NCBI RefSeq assembly: GCF_009663685.2
Contig: NZ_RCOG02000022.1
Coordinates: 124,558 to 188,557 of the forward strand
Direction of reading: 5' to 3'
DNA from: Cupriavidus sp. U2
Lineage (GTDB): Bacteria > Pseudomonadota > Gammaproteobacteria > Burkholderiales > Burkholderiaceae
Length of the DNA stretch: 64,000 nt
Each line of letters opens with the position of its first letter. Positions within the stretch are counted from its first letter, which is position 1. This document shows, in pieces, positions 5,962 through 15,700 of the stretch. The notes below the pieces were generated by a model. The model worked only from the letters and a program-made list of their open reading frames with translations, was not told the DNA's origin and searched no databases. A program made the position numbers and the translations under genes.

Positions 5962-6043
<82 letters not shown>

Positions 6044-7009: not shown

Positions 7010-8134
7010 CTATGCCGCCGGTAACGTTAGCTTGACGGTGGACAAGGGCACGTCCCGCTGCTTAATGTACCCCTCGGTCGTTGCCCTATCGGCGTGGGCA
7101 CCGGCCACCTGCAAGGCCTCAATGTCGTAGCCCGCGCGCTTCGCATCCGTCAGCGCCTTCGCCCGAATATCCTTCACCACGTAGTCCTTGTCGCCCAGCT
7201 TTGCGCGCTCCAGCGCGTCGCGCCATGCTTCGCGGCAGGCGGCCGCTGTCTTCGGCTTGCCCTGGCGGTTCACCACCACATAGTCGTCGGCCGTCAGGGT
7301 GCGCACCTTGGCCCCGCGCGCAACCGTCTTGGCGCGGCGCAGCACCCGTGCGATCTCGGGCGTGATCGGCCAGTCTACGGCTTGGCCGGTGCTTTTAGCC
7401 GTCTTGGTCGGCTTAAACCGGATCACGCCTGCCAGCTCGTCCACCTGCGACCAGCGCAGCTCTCGGATGTCGGTCGACCGCTGGCAGGTCAGGTAGCACA
7501 GGTCGACGAAGACCTGCATCTCCGGCCCGGTTGGCACCTTCGCCTCGACCTCCACCTCCTGCCCGTCTTTCATCCGTTTGTACCTGTAGACCGACAAGGC
7601 GTCACGGATGGCCACGAAGTGTGCGTGCGGGATGTACACGTCCCGGCCCTTGGGCTTCGACACCTTCACTTCCCGGCATGGGTTGGCGGTGGCATGGCGC
7701 CGGCGTACCGCCCATGAGAAGAAGGCCGACAGCCAACCCTTCATGGCTGTCTGGGTCGCTGGCTTGTCCGACCATTCGGCGATCAGGAAGTCCTCGATCA
7801 CGCCGGCGTCGACCTGGGCGATGTCGTAATTCTGGAAGGCGGTGCGGCACTGCGCGCCGCGGCGCTCCCATTCGTCCCGGAACGATTCGGCGTAGCCGCC
7901 CTTGAACTGCTCGATGTAGACCTTTACCAGGCGGGACATGCTGCCCTCCAGGCCGTCCGCCTCCACCTTCCGCTTCTCGATGGTCAGGCGTTCGAGCATG
8001 CGCGTCTCGCCTTCCTCCACGCGGCACAGCTTGATCCACTTCTCGTCGGTGTTCCGGACCCAGAAATAGCTGTTGCGGCGGATGTACACCCGACTGGGCA
8101 GACCATCCAGCTTTGTGCGACGACGTGCGTTCAT
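7010..8134 (-). CDS. int: Tyrosine-type phage integrase
   Basis: 374 residues, reading from ATG at 8134. The first ~70 residues form the arm-binding region, about 75-150 the core-binding (SAM-like) domain, and about 165-374 the catalytic domain. Catalytic residues visible are Arg219 (TCQRSTDIRELRW), a Lys in KPTKTAK (243-247), Arg324 in KDIR, His347 in GAHADR and the nucleophile Tyr356 (EGYIKQR). The first His of the usual H-x-x-R box is Lys321 here, a variation known in some phage integrases. It catalyses integration at tRNA-Pro. Its start overlaps the stop of the upstream gene (ATGA), so it is translated as the last gene of the leftward early operon. Confidence 0.95.
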   Translation of the reverse strand: MNARRRTKLDGLPSRVYIRRNSYFWVRNTDEKWIKLCRVEEGETRMLERLTIEKRKVEADGLEGSMSRLVKVYIEQFKGGYAESFRDEWERRGAQCRTAFQNYDIAQVDAGVIEDFLIAEWSDKPATQTAMKGWLSAFFSWAVRRRHATANPCREVKVSKPKGRDVYIPHAHFVAIRDALSVYRYKRMKDGQEVEVEAKVPTGPEMQVFVDLCYLTCQRSTDIRELRWSQVDELAGVIRFKPTKTAKSTGQAVDWPITPEIARVLRRAKTVARGAKVRTLTADDYVVVNRQGKPKTAAACREAWRDALERAKLGDKDYVVKDIRAKALTDAKRAGYDIEALQVAGAHADRATTEGYIKQRDVPLSTVKLTLPAA

Positions 8135-8370
8135 GCTGCCTTCCGGAGAGGGACCAGGGCGGGGCGCTGGTTGGTCTCGGCCGTCGGCAGCACGCCGGCG
8201 CGCTTCGCCTGCAGAGCTTCGAATGCTGCCCAGGTCATGATGATGCGCCGGTCTGCCCGCTGCACCGGCGTCACGCCAAAATGGCGCTCGAACCACAGCA
8301 TTTGCAGCTTGGGCCGCTTCAGGCCGGTCACGTCACGCAGGTCCTGCTCGCTCATCAGTCGGTTGTCCAT
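8131..8370 (-). CDS. DUF4224-like small protein, excisionase candidate
   Basis: 79 residues from ATG 8370, which has GGGAG seven bases upstream; a TTG at 8427 would add 19 residues but has no ribosome-binding site. The N-terminus MDNRLMSEQDLRDVTGLKRPKLQ matches the pattern of DUF4224 proteins (an L-T-x-E-E-L-x-x-L-TG-YK/RP helix-turn-helix), which commonly sit just before phage integrases. It overlaps int by four bases. Excisionase or recombination directionality function is inferred from size, fold pattern and place. Confidence 0.65.
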   Translation of the reverse strand: MDNRLMSEQDLRDVTGLKRPKLQMLWFERHFGVTPVQRADRRIIMTWAAFEALQAKRAGVLPTAETNQRPALVPLRKAA

Positions 8371-8427
8371 TTGCTGCTCCCAGAGTCGCCGGGTCGTTTC
8401 GATAATGCGCGCTGCTGTTTCGGTCAA

Positions 8428-8859
8428 TTATTGGTTCTGAATAATTTGGGATAAAACGTCGGCCGGCACTTCGAAGAAGCCCAGGCGACCGGCCAGCGGC
8501 GTGAAGGGCAGGGGCTGGGCGCCGCGCAGGGCGAAGCCGTGGCAGCCCGGCATGTGCCAGTACGAAGTCCGGCGTTCTGGCGGCACGCAGCCGGCGACCT
8601 CGGTCATGCCGACGATGCCGCCGCGCTGCAGATCCTCCAAACGGGGGAAGTGGGCTCGGATGCCGGCCTGGTCAAACATCAGCAGCGCCGCGCTGTACTC
8701 CAGCCGGGTCATGCCCTTGGCCGCATGGATCAGCACCGGCCCACGGAACCGCGTGGCCCACGACCGGTTCTCGATGTCCTTGCGGCCGTTGACGATCAGC
8801 CAGGCCCACGGCTGGCGGATGGATAGGGCTTTGGTGGGAAGGGGACGAGCCAGCGTCAT
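8428..8859 (-). CDS. ASCH-domain protein
   Basis: 143 residues from ATG 8859, overlapping the stop of the methylase gene (ATGA). The N-terminal half reads KALSIRQPWAWLIVNGRKDIENRSW, the signature start of ASCH domains (PUA-like beta-barrels that bind nucleic acid; one family, YqfB, hydrolyses N4-acetylcytidine). Further blocks are GPVLIHAAKG and GGIVGMTEVAGCV. Phage ASCH proteins mostly have no assigned role. Lying between a DNA methylase and the integrase, it may recognise modified or phage nucleic acid; that is inference. Confidence 0.75.
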   Translation of the reverse strand: MTLARPLPTKALSIRQPWAWLIVNGRKDIENRSWATRFRGPVLIHAAKGMTRLEYSAALLMFDQAGIRAHFPRLEDLQRGGIVGMTEVAGCVPPERRTSYWHMPGCHGFALRGAQPLPFTPLAGRLGFFEVPADVLSQIIQNQ

Positions 8860-9716
8860 GCGATCAGCTCCATCTGGGAACGCTCTCGCTCGAGTGCGGC
8901 GGAGCATGCCGGGTTGATCCAAACCACTTCCGTGCGCGCGCGCCCGCCGTCGGCCATGTGCCGCCGCTCGTGGCGTTCCCAATCGGCAAATAGCTCGTCG
9001 TCGTACAGTGCGCTGGGGTAGCCGGATAGCACCACCATCGCAGTGCTCGCACGGAGTACTGCGGCCAACGCGCGATGGTCGTCGTCGGTCATCTCGTGCC
9101 GGTAGCCGTGGGTCTTCGCGGACCGGCCCATGATCGCGGACCTGGTGCTGTGGGCGTAGGGTGGATCCGCGTAGATCAGCGCATTTGGGTTGTCCATCCG
9201 AGCGATCACCTCGAGTGCGTCGCGATTCTCCAGCAGTACTCCCTGCAGCCGACGGGTGAACGAAGGGATTGCATCGGCCCAGCGCGACCATTCTGCCGAC
9301 GGCAACCCACGGCCATCCGTCAACTTCGAGCGGAAGCCGGTGCGGCAGCCGCGCGTGGCGCTGTCGCTGCCGTGGCCGAAGAACGAGCGCACGATCATCT
9401 TGTGGGCGCTGTCGATATCGTCGACGGACGGTTCGTACGACCAGTCGAATTCATCCCGCGAGAACGGGGTTAGGGCGACGCGACGCTGTAGCTCGAGTGC
9501 TTTGCCCTGCTCGCGCAATACACGGAAGACGTTCACCACCTGGCCGTCGAGGTCGTTGTAGCACTCGGCTGGCACGCGGTCCTTCTGCAGCAGGATCCCG
9601 GCGCCGCCGCCGAACGGCTCTACGTAGCACGAGTGGGCGGGAAAGAATCCCATCACCCACGGCGCCAGGCGGAACTTGCTGCCGTGGTAGCGAAGAACGG
9701 GGCGTGTCACCGTCAT
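8856..9716 (-). CDS. Dam-type (D12 class) N6-adenine DNA methyltransferase
   Basis: 286 residues. The SAM-binding motif is at 33-40 (EPFGGGAG) after the N-terminal RYHGSKFRLAPW typical of the D12/Dam family, and the catalytic motif DPPY is at 184-187. The enzyme would transfer a methyl group to the N6 of adenine, probably to protect phage DNA or change promoter activity. No cognate endonuclease is adjacent, so it is an orphan methylase. It is in the leftward early operon and its stop overlaps the ASCH gene. Confidence 0.92.
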   Translation of the reverse strand: MTVTRPVLRYHGSKFRLAPWVMGFFPAHSCYVEPFGGGAGILLQKDRVPAECYNDLDGQVVNVFRVLREQGKALELQRRVALTPFSRDEFDWSYEPSVDDIDSAHKMIVRSFFGHGSDSATRGCRTGFRSKLTDGRGLPSAEWSRWADAIPSFTRRLQGVLLENRDALEVIARMDNPNALIYADPPYAHSTRSAIMGRSAKTHGYRHEMTDDDHRALAAVLRASTAMVVLSGYPSALYDDELFADWERHERRHMADGGRARTEVVWINPACSAALERERSQMELIA

Positions 9717-9745
9717 GCTAGGATGCCTCCAAAAAAGGAGACCCT

Positions 9746-10009
9746 ATGAACTGGGAGCCGGAGTTTCAGTACAACTACACGCGAACCAAGGGCGAGCGCT
9801 TCACATACGACGTCAAGATTGACGTGTCCGAGGTGGAAGGACTGTCGGGCCACTTTGTGACACGTACGTGGATATTTCGCGACGGGAACTACAAAGGCAG
9901 CGGCGTCAACTACGGGACGGTCATTGTCGGGAGCCGAACAGAGGCTGCAGATCATGCGTTCAGGCACGCGCAGCGTGACATTGAACTGCAAGTGGGCATG
10001 TACGAGTAG
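9746..10009 (+). CDS. Small unknown protein, opposite strand to its neighbours
   Basis: 87 residues rich in aromatic and charged residues (MNWEPEFQYNYTRTKGERF...), with no membrane segment or recognisable domain. It is preceded by a strong AAAAAAGGAGACCCTATG start region. It is the only rightward gene within the 10-kb leftward operon and ends two bases before the convergent TGT-like gene. I do not recognise it. The good ribosome-binding site and clean stop support it being real. Confidence 0.6.
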   Translation: MNWEPEFQYNYTRTKGERFTYDVKIDVSEVEGLSGHFVTRTWIFRDGNYKGSGVNYGTVIVGSRTEAADHAFRHAQRDIELQVGMYE

Positions 10010-10011
10010 CA

Positions 10012-10770
10012 TCACGCGGCCTCCCCGAACAGGCCGCGCTGGATCGGTGCCGCCATGCGCTCCCAGAAGGTCAGGGACTGCCGCGATTCAATCCGCTCGC
10101 GCATGACCGCTGCGCGCGATTCCTTGCTGGCCGGCGTGTAGGTCCCGCGCCAGGCGCTGTCGATGCCCACGTTCTGGGCGATGTTCGTGCTGTCGGCGCT
10201 GGCGAAGGGGAAGCGGCTGAAGACTTCCGGGTCAAGCATGCGCAGACCGTGCAGTTTGCAGACCGGCCGGCCGTCTCGGTCGCACACCGCGTCCATAGCC
10301 TCGGCCATGCGGGTCCACCAGCGCAGCGTGCCGATCTGGGCGAACTCGCCGGAGCTGCCGAGGCAGACGCGAGGCCACGCCAGCGACAGACGTTCCAACC
10401 GTTCCAGGCTTTCGTGCAGGTGCCAGACCGGCGCACCTACCCACGGCGCCCGCTCGCGCCACGGCCATTCCGCCACCAGGACGTCGTTCGCCGCCTCGTC
10501 GCCGTCGATAACATCAGGGATCACCGCAAAGTCGAAGGCTGGGTAGCGGTGCAGTTCGGCCACCCAGGCGTAGTACTCGCTCCAGTCCGTCACCGGCGCG
10601 CCAGAGCGCCAGGCGCTGAAGGCGCCGTTATCCACGGCGAAGGACTGGGCAACGTCCAGCACGATGCCCAATTGCTCGGGGTAGCGAAAAGAGACGAACG
10701 CGTGGCCGGAGAACACCGCCTTAGCGGCGGCCGTGGTCGGCGTGATCGGCATGCCGTGGTAATGGATCAT
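10012..10770 (-). CDS. TGT/DpdA-like phage protein (putative base-exchange enzyme)
   Basis: 252 residues from ATG 10770, overlapping the stop of the PP-loop gene (ATGA). Motifs in order are FAVDNGAFSAW (44-54), AVIPDVIDGD (82-91), PVWHLHE (114-120), RVCLGSSGEFA (134-144), KLHGLRML (172-179) and SADSTN (191-196). The D-x-GAFS block and the D/G-rich strand ends look like those of phage proteins related to tRNA-guanine transglycosylase and DpdA, which put 7-deazaguanines into tRNA or DNA. That match is from memory. No preQ0 synthesis genes (folE, queD, queE, queC) are in the window, so a substrate would have to come from the host. Confidence 0.5.
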   Translation of the reverse strand: MIHYHGMPITPTTAAAKAVFSGHAFVSFRYPEQLGIVLDVAQSFAVDNGAFSAWRSGAPVTDWSEYYAWVAELHRYPAFDFAVIPDVIDGDEAANDVLVAEWPWRERAPWVGAPVWHLHESLERLERLSLAWPRVCLGSSGEFAQIGTLRWWTRMAEAMDAVCDRDGRPVCKLHGLRMLDPEVFSRFPFASADSTNIAQNVGIDSAWRGTYTPASKESRAAVMRERIESRQSLTFWERMAAPIQRGLFGEAA

Positions 10771-11756
10771 TCGCAGAGTCCATACGACGACGAGCAAGCA
10801 GTCGGCTCGTCGAGTTGATCGAGAAGGTTGTATTGCCGGCCGCCGCGCGTGGTCTTGCTCCACTCCACCACGGAGTGGATGGTCGATGTCTGCCCGGCAT
10901 GGCCTTGGGTGCCGAGATGAAAGAACGAGACCGGCGATCGCGGCCGGCATACGCCGGACACCAGGCGCTCCCATTCGGCAATGCGTTCGATGTGCTGCGG
11001 CCACCGGCGCGCGATCTCGCGCAACTCGGCCTTGCTGCAGTTGATGCAGGGCATGCACCCGACGCGTGCCTGACCTTGCAGATAGAGCGGATTGGGACGG
11101 ATCCCGGCGAGTTCGTGCGCCTGGAAGACATCGGGTGCCAACCACCGAAGGATGGGCCGGTAGTTGTAGAGGCCGCCGCCGACCTCTTCGAAAGCGCTTA
11201 CGCAGGCGCCAGTGCCCTGCAACAAGCGCCGCCGGCGTGGGCTCTCTTCGAGGCGAACGCCTTGCCAAGACCAGACGGCGTAGCCAGAGTCGATGATGTC
11301 GATGGCATATGCCGTCAGTGGCTCCGTCTTCAGATATTCGGTGCAGTACTGTCGGTTCAAGGAAGGGAAGCCGCCCTTGAGCAAGCACATATCCAGATAT
11401 GGGATGCCTGTCGGGTGAAGCAACTCAAGCGCTCGCGCCGCTGCCTCTGGCGTCCACTGATACATGAACTTGCGGCGGCCATAGACGGCAGTCTCTGGCT
11501 CCCCTGCGGCCAACCGAGCCAGATTGGCGCGCTTCGTCGCGAATTCGTCGGTAAAGTCGGCTCTCACCACATCCACTCGGATGCCGAGCGCCTGGGGCAG
11601 ATAGTCCAGCGCGTACTCGACCGTCGCTTCATGCTCGTTGCCGGTGTCGGCGAAGACGAAGCGACAGGCCTCGCGGCCATGCTGCTCGATAGCGAGGATG
11701 GCGGTGGCGGTGCTGTCCTTGCCGCCGGACATGGAGACGACGTGAATGATGCTCAC
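10767..11756 (-). CDS. PP-loop (PAPS reductase-like) phage protein
   Basis: 329 residues with the PP-loop nucleotide-binding motif SGGKDS at about 10-15, then DTGNEHEATVEY, typical of the PAPS reductase/DndC/thiolation superfamily, which activates substrates with ATP. A Cys cluster (CMPCINCSK, about 233-241) could bind zinc or iron-sulfur. The start is GTG 11756, overlapping the previous stop as GTGA. It is translationally coupled to the TGT-like gene, so both may act in one nucleic-acid modification step. True sulfate-assimilation function is unlikely in this context. Confidence 0.8.
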   Translation of the reverse strand: MSIIHVVSMSGGKDSTATAILAIEQHGREACRFVFADTGNEHEATVEYALDYLPQALGIRVDVVRADFTDEFATKRANLARLAAGEPETAVYGRRKFMYQWTPEAAARALELLHPTGIPYLDMCLLKGGFPSLNRQYCTEYLKTEPLTAYAIDIIDSGYAVWSWQGVRLEESPRRRRLLQGTGACVSAFEEVGGGLYNYRPILRWLAPDVFQAHELAGIRPNPLYLQGQARVGCMPCINCSKAELREIARRWPQHIERIAEWERLVSGVCRPRSPVSFFHLGTQGHAGQTSTIHSVVEWSKTTRGGRQYNLLDQLDEPTACSSSYGLCE

Positions 11757-12385
11757 GCGCCCACCTCGCCACCGCTATTCACCGCAGAATTTGCGGAGAT
11801 TACGGCCGTATTCTCCGCACGGCCCTCGAACAGGGCTTCTATTTCGGTGTTTGGGGCGGTGGATATGGCGGCCATCTGGGCATCAATAGCGGCGCGGGGA
11901 GTGCAATACCACGCGCGCTGCGATTCGTCGAAGCCTGGCCAATACAGGTGATACCGCTTTTCGCCTTCACCGTTGGTGATCGTGTCAATGATCGCGCCAT
12001 CCTCAAGAAGGAAGTCCAGTCGCTTCACGTCCCGCGCATCGTTCGATCCTTGTGCCGAGGCGGCGAGAATCGCGCGGACTGCAGCGATGAATGCAGGCTC
12101 TGCCTTCGGGTCGTGCCCGGGGCGGAAGTGCTGACGACCAATTGCCAGAATCTGCTCATCCGTCGGCGCCATACCGTCACCGGTGATTGCCGTCGATTCG
12201 TTGTCCTTTTGGCGATTGATGCTCTCCAGCACGTCGCTCTGCTTCCATTCCGTTTCACGGTCGAGGAAGCTACGGCCGAGCGGGTGGCCGGCGCCCAGGC
12301 CGTCGTTGAAGGCCAACTGCCAGGCCTCGTCCCACGCGGACTTGGCGACCTCGGTCAGCGCACCACGTGCGTCATTGGTAGTCAT
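11753..12385 (-). CDS. Phage protein of unknown function
   Basis: 210 residues from ATG 12385, which has AGGAA six bases upstream; a GTG immediately before it (12388) is the alternative. The middle contains RDVKRLDFLLEDG and further on YHLYWPGFDE and TPRAAIDAQMA, a pattern seen in many phage early proteins of unknown role (R-R-L-D-W ... R-x-AID-x-AM). No enzyme motif is visible. It lies between the recombination genes and the PP-loop gene. The 211-bp gap behind it (12389-12599) shows nothing. Confidence 0.7.
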   Translation of the reverse strand: MTTNDARGALTEVAKSAWDEAWQLAFNDGLGAGHPLGRSFLDRETEWKQSDVLESINRQKDNESTAITGDGMAPTDEQILAIGRQHFRPGHDPKAEPAFIAAVRAILAASAQGSNDARDVKRLDFLLEDGAIIDTITNGEGEKRYHLYWPGFDESQRAWYCTPRAAIDAQMAAISTAPNTEIEALFEGRAENTAVISANSAVNSGGEVGA

Positions 12386-13983: not shown

Positions 13984-14568
13984 TCAGGCGGCGTGCTTGT
14001 TCTTGAAACGGTGCAGGGCGAGGCAACCGAGGAAGACCTGCCAGTCCTCCGGGTCGGTCATCTCGTGCAGGCGGTAGGTGCCGTCGTCGCGCAGCTCGAT
14101 CGCGTAGCGGCCCTCGACGCGCTTGCCGCTGGCCTTCTCGACGGCGTTCTTGTACGCAGCGGTCTGCGGGCCGTAGCTGGGAAACATGGCGCCCGTCTTC
14201 AGATCGAAGATGCAGCGTTTGCCGTCCAGCATCACCAGGCGGTCGTAGGTGCCGGCGTAGCGGTGGGCCGGGTGGAACACGCGCTCTTCCATGCCCAGGA
14301 TCTCGAACGGCAGTTCAGCGCGCAGCCGGATCCAGCCATCGAGGTACGGCTGCACCAGCGGCGAGACGGTGCTTTCGTCCAGCTCGCCCAGGTCGTACAG
14401 CTCAGTGGCCTTGTGCACGGCGGTGCCGAGGTCGCGCTTGAACTGCAGCACGTCCGGCTTGATGAACGACAGGTCGTTCAGCGGCGCGAGGATCTGCGTC
14501 ACGCTGGGCACGCGCACACCGTTTTCGGTGTAGGTGTGCGTCGCCTCGTCGAAGTGCAGGGCGGACAT
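13984..14568 (-). CDS. PD-(D/E)XK exonuclease of the Bet system
   Basis: 194 residues of the RecB/Cas4-type nuclease fold. Key residues are His52 in GTAVHKATE, Asp109 in GTYDR, and Asp122/Lys124 in FDLKTG. It should resect double-stranded DNA ends so that the annealase can load. It begins one base inside the stop of the bet gene (TGATG), a coupling typical of exonuclease/annealase pairs. Confidence 0.85.
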   Translation of the reverse strand: MSALHFDEATHTYTENGVRVPSVTQILAPLNDLSFIKPDVLQFKRDLGTAVHKATELYDLGELDESTVSPLVQPYLDGWIRLRAELPFEILGMEERVFHPAHRYAGTYDRLVMLDGKRCIFDLKTGAMFPSYGPQTAAYKNAVEKASGKRVEGRYAIELRDDGTYRLHEMTDPEDWQVFLGCLALHRFKNKHAA

Positions 14569-15533
14569 CAGCAGTTCTCCTGAATGTAGTCCTGCAGCGC
14601 CACGAAGCCGTCACGGGTCAGACCGTCGAGCGTGTCCGGGGTGGAAAGGCCCAGCGTGTCGAGCGCTTCCTGCAGCGGGATTTCTGCGCCGGCCAGCTTT
14701 GTCCGCACGTACTGCTTCTCGCCATCGGTGGCCAGGTCGGCACCATCCGCCGGCTCGCCGCCCGTCGGCGCGACGTCCTGCGCGGCTTCCTTGGCCTGCT
14801 GGCGCTGGGCCACGGGCTGACGCGTGCGCTGTGCCGGCTGCTCGACGACGTCTGCCGGTTGTGACGCGACCTGCTTTGGCCGGGCCTGCGGCATGGCCAC
14901 CCGGGATGCTGGCTGCGCCACGGTCTCGGCGGCGCCCATGTCGCGCTCGACGATGCGGTCGGCCTCGTCCTCGTCGTAGATGCCGGCGAAGCCGAAGGCG
15001 ATACGCGCCCCCTGGATCAGCACCTTGTGGCGCAGCATGCGTTTCGTGTGGCTCTGCCACGGACCGTTGATCTTGTTCTCGCCGCGCGGGCCCTGGTACG
15101 TCTCGTCAAGGTATTCGCGGACGATGGTCGGCCGGTCGCGGTCCTTGCGGTAGATCAGTATCTCGCACCACACCGGGCAGGCCTTGCCGGCCGCCGGCGT
15201 TTCCATTTCCTCGGAGTACCGGAACTCCAGGCCGTTGAAGGCGGGGTGCTCGTTGATGATCCGGGCCCAGCCGTCGACGCTGACCACCGGCACGATGGCG
15301 CCCTTGTCCTCGTACGCGAAGATTTCCTTCGTGAACGGGTTGAGCTTGTACTGGTCGGCCACGATCAGCAGCGCGGCCATCTGCTCGTCGGTGATGTCGC
15401 GGTTGTTCCTCTGGCGGAATGCCGTTGCCTTCAACGTGGCCAGAAGCTTGTTCGGGTCGATGTTGTAGCGGCCGGCGAACTTCGCGACCAGACTTTGGTT
15501 CGGGGCCGGGCGCTCGGCAACGGCAGTAGACAT
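14568..15533 (-). CDS. bet: Bet/RecT-type single-strand annealing protein
   Basis: 321 residues from ATG 15533 (upstream in-frame sequence overlaps other small genes and is rejected). The conserved domain is about residues 5-200, with FRQRNNRDITDEQMAALLIVADQYKLNPFTKEIFAY and VVSVDGWARIINEHPAFNG, hallmarks of Redbeta/RecT annealases. The rest is a Gln/Ala/Pro-rich linker and a small C-terminal domain with DTLGLSTPDTLDGL, possibly for contact with host SSB. It anneals complementary strands during phage recombination. Confidence 0.93.
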   Translation of the reverse strand: MSTAVAERPAPNQSLVAKFAGRYNIDPNKLLATLKATAFRQRNNRDITDEQMAALLIVADQYKLNPFTKEIFAYEDKGAIVPVVSVDGWARIINEHPAFNGLEFRYSEEMETPAAGKACPVWCEILIYRKDRDRPTIVREYLDETYQGPRGENKINGPWQSHTKRMLRHKVLIQGARIAFGFAGIYDEDEADRIVERDMGAAETVAQPASRVAMPQARPKQVASQPADVVEQPAQRTRQPVAQRQQAKEAAQDVAPTGGEPADGADLATDGEKQYVRTKLAGAEIPLQEALDTLGLSTPDTLDGLTRDGFVALQDYIQENC

Positions 15534-15556
15534 GCGGGTCTCCAGTAGAAGGCGGA

Positions 15557-15700
15557 TTACAGGGCGCCGGCGCGCAGGGCGACGGCCAGGTACCAGACGA
15601 GGGGCGCGGCGATGACGAAGCCGGCGGCGCACGCGTATTCGATCGAGCGCTTGCGCTTCGCGAGCGCCAGCAGCTGGTTGCTGTCGGGGTCGTAGGTCAT
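15557..15700 (-). CDS. 47-aa membrane micro-protein
   Basis: Begins MTYDPDSNQLLALAKRKRS and then has one strongly hydrophobic helix (FVIAAPLVWYLAVAL). It overlaps the stop of the preceding 37-aa gene as ATGA, which supports translation. Basic residues before the helix suggest N-in topology. Function unknown. Confidence 0.55.
   Translation of the reverse strand: MTYDPDSNQLLALAKRKRSIEYACAAGFVIAAPLVWYLAVALRAGAL

Follow-up and report, generated by a model that had tools for sequence, protein, structure and literature searches.

A singleton DpdA-like gene in the accessory region of a Cupriavidus prophage

Does a block of four prophage genes in Cupriavidus sp. U2 make up one pathway for modifying nucleic acid, or do the genes act separately? 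The block occupies positions 8428 to 11756 of a 64,000-nucleotide stretch (assembly GCF_009663685.2, contig NZ_RCOG02000022.1, positions 124,558 to 188,557), which we call the window. A sequence-only reading had proposed a single modification cluster consisting of a PP-loop protein, a protein resembling tRNA-guanine transglycosylase (TGT) and the phage enzyme DpdA, a Dam-type methylase and an ASCH-domain protein. Checking the open reading frames (ORFs) of the window confirmed the four minus-strand genes, the ASCH domain and the 4-nt ATGA overlaps that couple the PP-loop gene to the TGT-like gene (10767-10770) and the methylase gene to the ASCH gene (8856-8859). The motifs named in that reading were likewise all present: the PP-loop protein has SGGKDS and a cysteine cluster, the TGT-like protein carries DNGAFS, LGSSGEF and HGLRM, and the D12 methylase has DPPY. 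The family and PHROG matches of the four genes were far beyond chance level (Table 1). Judged by its sequence, the 252-aa TGT-like protein belongs to the phage singleton DpdA group (PHROG 887; DpdA/TGT_1 of PMC8306585). We consider it probable, with real room for doubt, that this protein exchanges guanine for a host-derived 7-deazaguanine and that the other three genes are separate accessories.

The TGT-like protein and its relatives

The TGT-like protein matched PHROG 887, which is annotated as queuine tRNA-ribosyltransferase, and was 40% identical to gp38 of Pantoea phage MED16 (255 aligned columns) and 37% identical to the homologue in Salmonella phage 7-11 (221 columns). The blocks DNGAF, PDxI/V-G, PxWH, HGLRxLD and ADS were common to all three proteins. 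MED16 gp38 has been published as DpdA, and dpdA was the only gene of the pathway found in MED16; phage 7-11 was one of 76 grouped phages that have DpdA but lack preQ0 genes (PMC8306585, PMC6884629). Traces of the 7-deazaguanine nucleoside dADG were reported in both, at 354 per million nt for MED16 and 50 per million nt for 7-11 (PMC8306585, PMC6884629), and DpdA was essential for modification in phage CAjan (PMC6884629). Because of these three phages, a role for the family in modifying DNA is suggested by analogy. The window's protein differs from its MED16 and 7-11 relatives in three respects: dADG has been measured in the DNA of those phages, whereas the window's DpdA is known from sequence alone; MED16 is described as lytic, whereas the window holds a prophage; and in the window a PP-loop gene overlaps the start of dpdA.

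Conservation within the family was nearly complete at six positions. In an alignment of 239 sequences (the window's protein, P0001, plus 238 others, not dereplicated, with ORFs of at least 420 aa and short matches left out), the conserved residues were D47 (236/237), D86 (237/238), H117 (237/238), G138 (238/238), H174 (239/239) and D193 (236/237). Going by TGT motifs, we take D47 (in DNGAF) and D193 (in ADSTN) to be the likely substrate-binding and nucleophile aspartates. Relatives of the protein were found by tblastn in 102 of 50,697 phage records, each below 60% identity, and the closest named genome match was in Cupriavidus necator (84%). PHROG 887 was rare in the host's family: of 299 genomes, only three carried it, one being the host itself. 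Genes of the queuine tRNA-ribosyltransferase type in BTP1 and HK106, whose products were 53% and 39% identical to the window's protein, likewise sit between integrase/excisionase and recombination genes, but no gene annotated as a PAPS (phosphoadenosine phosphosulfate) reductase lay within the 6.7 kb examined of either. The window's gene is thus a well-conserved prophage addition to a known, poorly understood singleton DpdA group, and not a new pathway.

A structural model of the TGT-like protein, built with 33 sequences, reached a pLDDT of 89 and a pTM of 0.88, with strands and helices alternating as in a TIM barrel. A Foldseek search of the PDB returned an archaeosine TGT first (1j2b; E 7.1e-4, TM 0.54 normalised to query length). 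The search of viral models gave 30 matches at E 0.001: eight were named (putative) queuine or queuosine tRNA-ribosyltransferases, one had another name and 21 were uncharacterised or nameless, including one from Vibrio phage nt-1. The six conserved residues were at or near strand ends in the model, as the active site of a TIM barrel would have them. The TGT/DpdA-like assignment of the sequence-only reading, for which absence of such a fold would have been damaging, therefore stood: the model is a TIM barrel, an archaeosine TGT is its top PDB match and the protein falls in a published DpdA group.

Supply, target and weight of the evidence

We surveyed loci around homologues of all four genes, with flanks of up to 10 kb: 150 viral and 80 genomic loci for DpdA, 79 for the PP-loop protein, 56 for the methylase and 80 for the ASCH protein. 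Each pattern scan contributed its best 80 loci (one scan gave 56), so the rates describe close and middling relatives. For the clustered counts, a locus had to extend 3 kb to either side of its anchor; neighbours were scored within 3 kb, and the loci were clustered at 90%. These counts comprised 133 of 230 DpdA, 55 of 79 PP-loop (PAPSr), 46 of 56 methylase (Dam) and 38 of 80 ASCH loci, which gave 89, 31, 38 and 33 clusters, respectively; PAPSr and GRTS matches below 100 bits were dropped from these counts. Survey ORFs were called mechanically, and the picking of neighbours missed some overlapping genes, among them the window's own PP-loop gene.

Two kinds of gene were found selectively beside DpdA. 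Vut_1-like genes were present in 44 of 150 viral and 3 of 80 genomic DpdA loci, compared with 0 of 215 loci with other anchors; for QueD-like genes the figures were 15 of 150 viral and 4 of 80 genomic loci, again compared with 0 of 215. After clustering, each kind lay within 3 kb of DpdA in 7 of 89 clusters and in none of 102 control clusters (p = 0.004 each); the Pfam identity of each kind was checked on one representative. That relatives adjoin Vut_1/YhhQ-like and QueD-like genes, and that the tested controls do not, argues that the DpdA group handles 7-deazaguanines. This linkage to transporter and QueD-like genes is new, as is the finding that, at this sample size, DpdA has no strong link to the PP-loop gene. 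The role of the singleton group is acknowledged as an open question in PMC6884629 and PMC8306585, and the neighbour survey offers a lead.

The Vut_1/YhhQ-like genes lay at most 300 bases from DpdA in 44 loci, downstream of it in 43 (for example, L037 1827-2336 and L039 3319-3828), and phage-borne proteins of this type possibly take up 7-deazaguanine precursors. Phage YhhQ homologues were reported not to correlate with any phage group (PMC6884629). In 10 of 19 loci, the QueD-like (PTPS) gene and the DpdA ORF shared a 4-nt overlap (examples of QueD-like genes are L053 3743-4075, L296 4195-4524, L176 9675-10004 and L257 9591-10004). The GHKC block, which we take to be the cysteine block of QueD, was missing from the proteins in 16 of the 19 loci, some of them near-identical, and the FxAAH and HGH histidines were kept. 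QueD-like proteins without GHKC may be inactive or may carry out a new, DpdA-linked activity. When the opening 60 residues of the ORFs near the QueD-like genes were inspected by eye in six loci, no queC, queE or folE gene was recognised.

The host genome had one above-cut-off match each for QueC, QueF, PTPS/QueD, TGT and Vut_1, with the QueC and PTPS matches on contig C8, QueF on C3 and the window on C5. That DpdA would use host preQ0, as had been proposed from the sequence, is a fair inference by analogy, because MED16 and 7-11 carry dADG with no preQ0 genes reported there. Their singleton DpdA proteins are homologous to the window's and share its conserved blocks, and host supply is proposed in both papers. 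Mycobacterium phage Orion, from the same gene-content group as 7-11, had no 7-deazaguanine, and its host is without preQ0 genes (PMC6884629).

The results obtained here concern the protein's family and fold, its conserved blocks, the supply genes of the host and the family's linkage to QueD-like and Vut_1-like genes; that DNA is the substrate, which base is inserted and what benefit it brings are what we infer. Under the favoured explanation, the compact DpdA would replace guanine, most likely in phage DNA and at low density, with a 7-deazaguanine supplied by the host queuosine pathway, either preQ0 or an amide made from it; the exchange may partly protect against host restriction. The D12 methylase would add m6A separately, and it, the PAPS-reductase-like gene and the ASCH gene would be separate accessories of the same early region rather than steps of one pathway. 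By our own arithmetic, the reported dADG corresponds to approximately 33 (MED16) and 9 (7-11) residues per double-stranded genome. Such marks would be site-specific, or inefficiently made, or partly derived from another source.

Several observations weigh against this explanation. At so few residues per genome, the base could come from elsewhere. QueC was found in 33 of 34 searched DpdA-bearing genomes (from 35 taken from the 80 genomic loci), leaving one genome without it, and also in 12 of 14 control genomes, so its presence hardly discriminates. The Vut_1-like and QueD-like models were built from neighbours of DpdA, which favours finding them there. Up to E 1, neither Pfam nor NCBIfam gave a match for the TGT-like protein; it also has no CxCxxC zinc motif, and a phmmer search against solved structures gave nothing better than E 0.07. 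Other TIM barrels came only slightly behind the archaeosine TGT fold match, the next at E 1.9e-3. When its profile was compared with that of 19 bacterial TGTs (those of 24 host TGT loci that had the searched motif), the match was not significant, at a probability of 0.2-0.3%, and we rejected such a link for shallow and deep alignments alike; the weak alignment placed DNGAF on the DSGGF block of TGT.

These same results bear on whether the protein acts on a host nucleic acid instead. Canonical TGTs have a zinc-binding CxCxxC...H subdomain. The window's protein shares with bacterial TGT and archaeal arcTGT the TIM barrel, but without a PF01702 match, CxCxxC or a significant profile match we rejected its assignment as a canonical TGT. 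A diverged TGT acting on tRNA or another host nucleic acid, and not on phage DNA, would fit the TGT-like fold; according to PMC6884629, further work is needed to tell whether singleton DpdA function has diverged, and the trace dADG in phage DNA could stem from other enzymes. Against this stand the missing family match and zinc motif and the dADG measured in MED16 and 7-11 DNA (PMC8306585, PMC6884629), and we regard such a diverged TGT as rather unlikely.

The PP-loop gene beside DpdA

The PP-loop protein matched PHROG 424, annotated as phosphoadenosine phosphosulfate reductase. Over residues 2-329 it was 42% identical to Orf84 of phage 186 and 41% identical to 'cysH' of a Peduovirus P2 record, which makes it a member, by homology, of this phage PAPS-reductase-like family; 28 phage records matched it at E 1e-5. 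Among 40 aligned sequences, Cys138, Cys234, Cys237, Cys321 and Cys328 were invariant, as was the SGGKDS block except for a nearly invariant G11. The combination of this block with invariant cysteines suggests that the protein works as an ATP pyrophosphatase and has a metal or Fe-S site. The top PDB match of its model was the adenosine phosphosulfate (APS) reductase 2goy (E 4.5e-8), followed by PAPS reductases and sulfurtransferases such as TtuA.

A PAPS_reduct domain and a matching fold are thus present, as in an assimilatory PAPS/APS reductase. We rejected the protein as a CysH equivalog: it scored 16 of 165 bits with TIGR00434 and 43 of 154 with PRK02090, and it has the SGGKDS loop and a YGLCE C-terminus, whereas true CysH presumably has another loop and a C-terminal ECGLH. 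It also scored below the cut-offs for QueC (PF06508, 17.5 vs 22 bits; TIGR00364, 19.8 vs 150.3) and DndC (TIGR03183, 18.8 vs 290.4). The sequence-only reading had likened the protein to base-activating PP-loop enzymes such as QueC and DndC and had suggested comparing its structure with PAPS reductase and QueC; membership of the PP-loop family and the reductase-like fold held, and an identity as QueC or DndC did not. A PADLOC scan, which covered only the four proteins of the block, matched the SspD model (4.9e-20), a model without a curated cut-off.

Does this protein work together with DpdA? In such a scheme, DpdA would insert a 7-deazaguanine, the PAPS-reductase-like enzyme would adenylate or thiolate the base or its precursor, and the Dam and ASCH proteins would serve as companion writer and reader. 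The ATGA coupling in the window favours it, as do the use of ATP and the metal or Fe-S site suggested by the sequence. Genes of the PP-loop family also lie directly beside DpdA elsewhere, on either side of it (L023, where the overlap is again 4 nt; L167/L126; L091; L108), a more distant PP-loop type does so in L185/L186, and another PAPSr-like subfamily does so in genome G141. A PAPS-reductase-like gene was directly beside PHROG 887 in two of the three host-family carriers, the host and G141, the subfamily differing in the latter. The G141 protein (L479 4253-5020, minus strand) follows directly after DpdA and has the variant loop FSAGAAS; its subfamily matched only two survey loci.

The counts, however, did not set the pair apart, and we rejected it as a conserved module. 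The PP-loop family was near DpdA in 4 of 89 clusters, compared with 1 of 71 clusters anchored on the methylase or ASCH gene (p = 0.38), so the neighbourhood survey that the sequence-only reading had called for did not bear the pairing out. Adding further PP-loop/PAPS-reductase types gave 13 of 133 vs 5 of 84 loci (p = 0.45), with 6 vs 2 directly adjacent (p = 0.49). Seen from the other anchors, DpdA lay within 3 kb in 3 of 31 PP-loop clusters, a point in favour of cooperation, but it was as frequent near the ASCH family (3/33); near the methylase it was found in 0 of 38 clusters. MED16 and 7-11 were absent from the 28 phage records matching the PP-loop protein, although more distant PP-loop types may exist there, and by-eye comparison placed none of the best 60 of the 102 DpdA phage records among the PP-loop matches. 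The literature searched contained no joint mention of queuine tRNA-ribosyltransferase, phosphoadenosine phosphosulfate reductase and phage.

A PP-loop/DpdA link is possible because the adjacency recurs in both orders, at counts not above what a shared accessory zone gives; the full four-gene scheme is, in our estimate, improbable. The narrower idea that the coupled PAPS-reductase-like ATP pyrophosphatase acts on the DpdA product or its precursor, so that phage DNA would contain a 7-deazaguanine that carries sulfur or is new in some other way, appears very improbable. If true, the PP-loop protein and DpdA would form a hypermodification unit of two genes, with preQ0 supplied by the host. Quite improbable, finally, is that these are unconnected passenger genes without current modification activity: they do lie in an accessory region between integrase and recombination genes, and the TGT-like gene is rare in the host's family, but its reading frame is intact, the active-site blocks of its family are near-invariant and its relatives have selective QueD-like and Vut_1-like neighbours.

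Layout of the locus and other neighbours

The four-gene block is flanked by integrase and excisionase-like genes on one side and by exonuclease and RecT-like genes on the other, with a tRNA gene past the integrase (Table 1). From these flanking genes, the block would be an accessory zone of the prophage, and the tRNA-Pro(ggg) gene is a possible attachment site. Between the TGT-like and methylase genes lies a probable gene on the plus strand, preceded by a good ribosome-binding site, AAAGGAG; the GC content at its third codon positions (GC3) exceeds that of the alternative minus-strand ORF opposite it (9713-10015; 0.74 vs 0.55). Neither small ORF had a PHROG match or, in the survey loci, a tblastn match at E 1e-4. 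With this likely plus-strand gene in between, the four genes seem to be arranged not as a single operon but as two coupled pairs.

Table 1. Features of the prophage region, with positions in the window
Feature	Position	Strand	Evidence
PP-loop protein, PAPS-reductase-like, 329 aa	10767-11756	-	PF01507 2e-18; PHROG 424 5.7e-67
Singleton DpdA / TGT-like transglycosylase, 252 aa	10012-10770	-	PHROG 887 9.8e-73
D12-class adenine methyltransferase, 286 aa	8856-9716	-	PF02086 1.3e-13; PADLOC MTase_II 1.7e-55
ASCH-domain protein, 143 aa	8428-8859	-	PF04266 5.7e-6; PHROG 3193 6.3e-44
Probable 87-aa gene, opposite strand	9746-10009	+	AAAGGAG upstream; GC3 0.74
Integrase	7010-8296	-	PHROG 1, 5.1e-39
Excisionase-like	8131-8427	-	PHROG 1266, 2.1e-6
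Exonuclease	13984-14568	-	PHROG 298, 3e-33
Bet/RecT-like annealing protein	14568-15632	-	PHROG 252, 4.3e-74
tRNA-Pro(ggg)	5962-6038	+	ARAGORN

The remaining neighbours showed no preference for DpdA either. The ASCH family was near DpdA in 3 of 89 clusters, compared with 2 of 69 (p = 1.0), and the methylase in 1 of 89, compared with 5 of 64 (p = 0.08, in the opposite direction). With the PP-loop, ASCH and methylase families not significantly enriched and a probable opposite-strand gene splitting the pairs, the proposal of one four-gene modification cluster was not supported. C5 methylases were rejected as DpdA partners (22 of 89 DpdA clusters vs 25 of 102 control clusters, p = 1.0). We also rejected an N4/N6 methylase as a partner of the PP-loop family: it lay beside that family in 15 of 55 loci before clustering and in 6 of 31 vs 24 of 160 clusters afterwards (p = 0.59).

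Two minor observations concern other DpdA loci. An 88-aa protein without a Pfam match (L288 10747-11013) adjoined DpdA in 26 of 169 clusters. In Pseudomonas phage Epa33 (L477), a C5 cytosine methylase gene comes after a DpdA homologue, and a gene noted as ASCH lies two genes further on (8740-10830 and 11267-11938).

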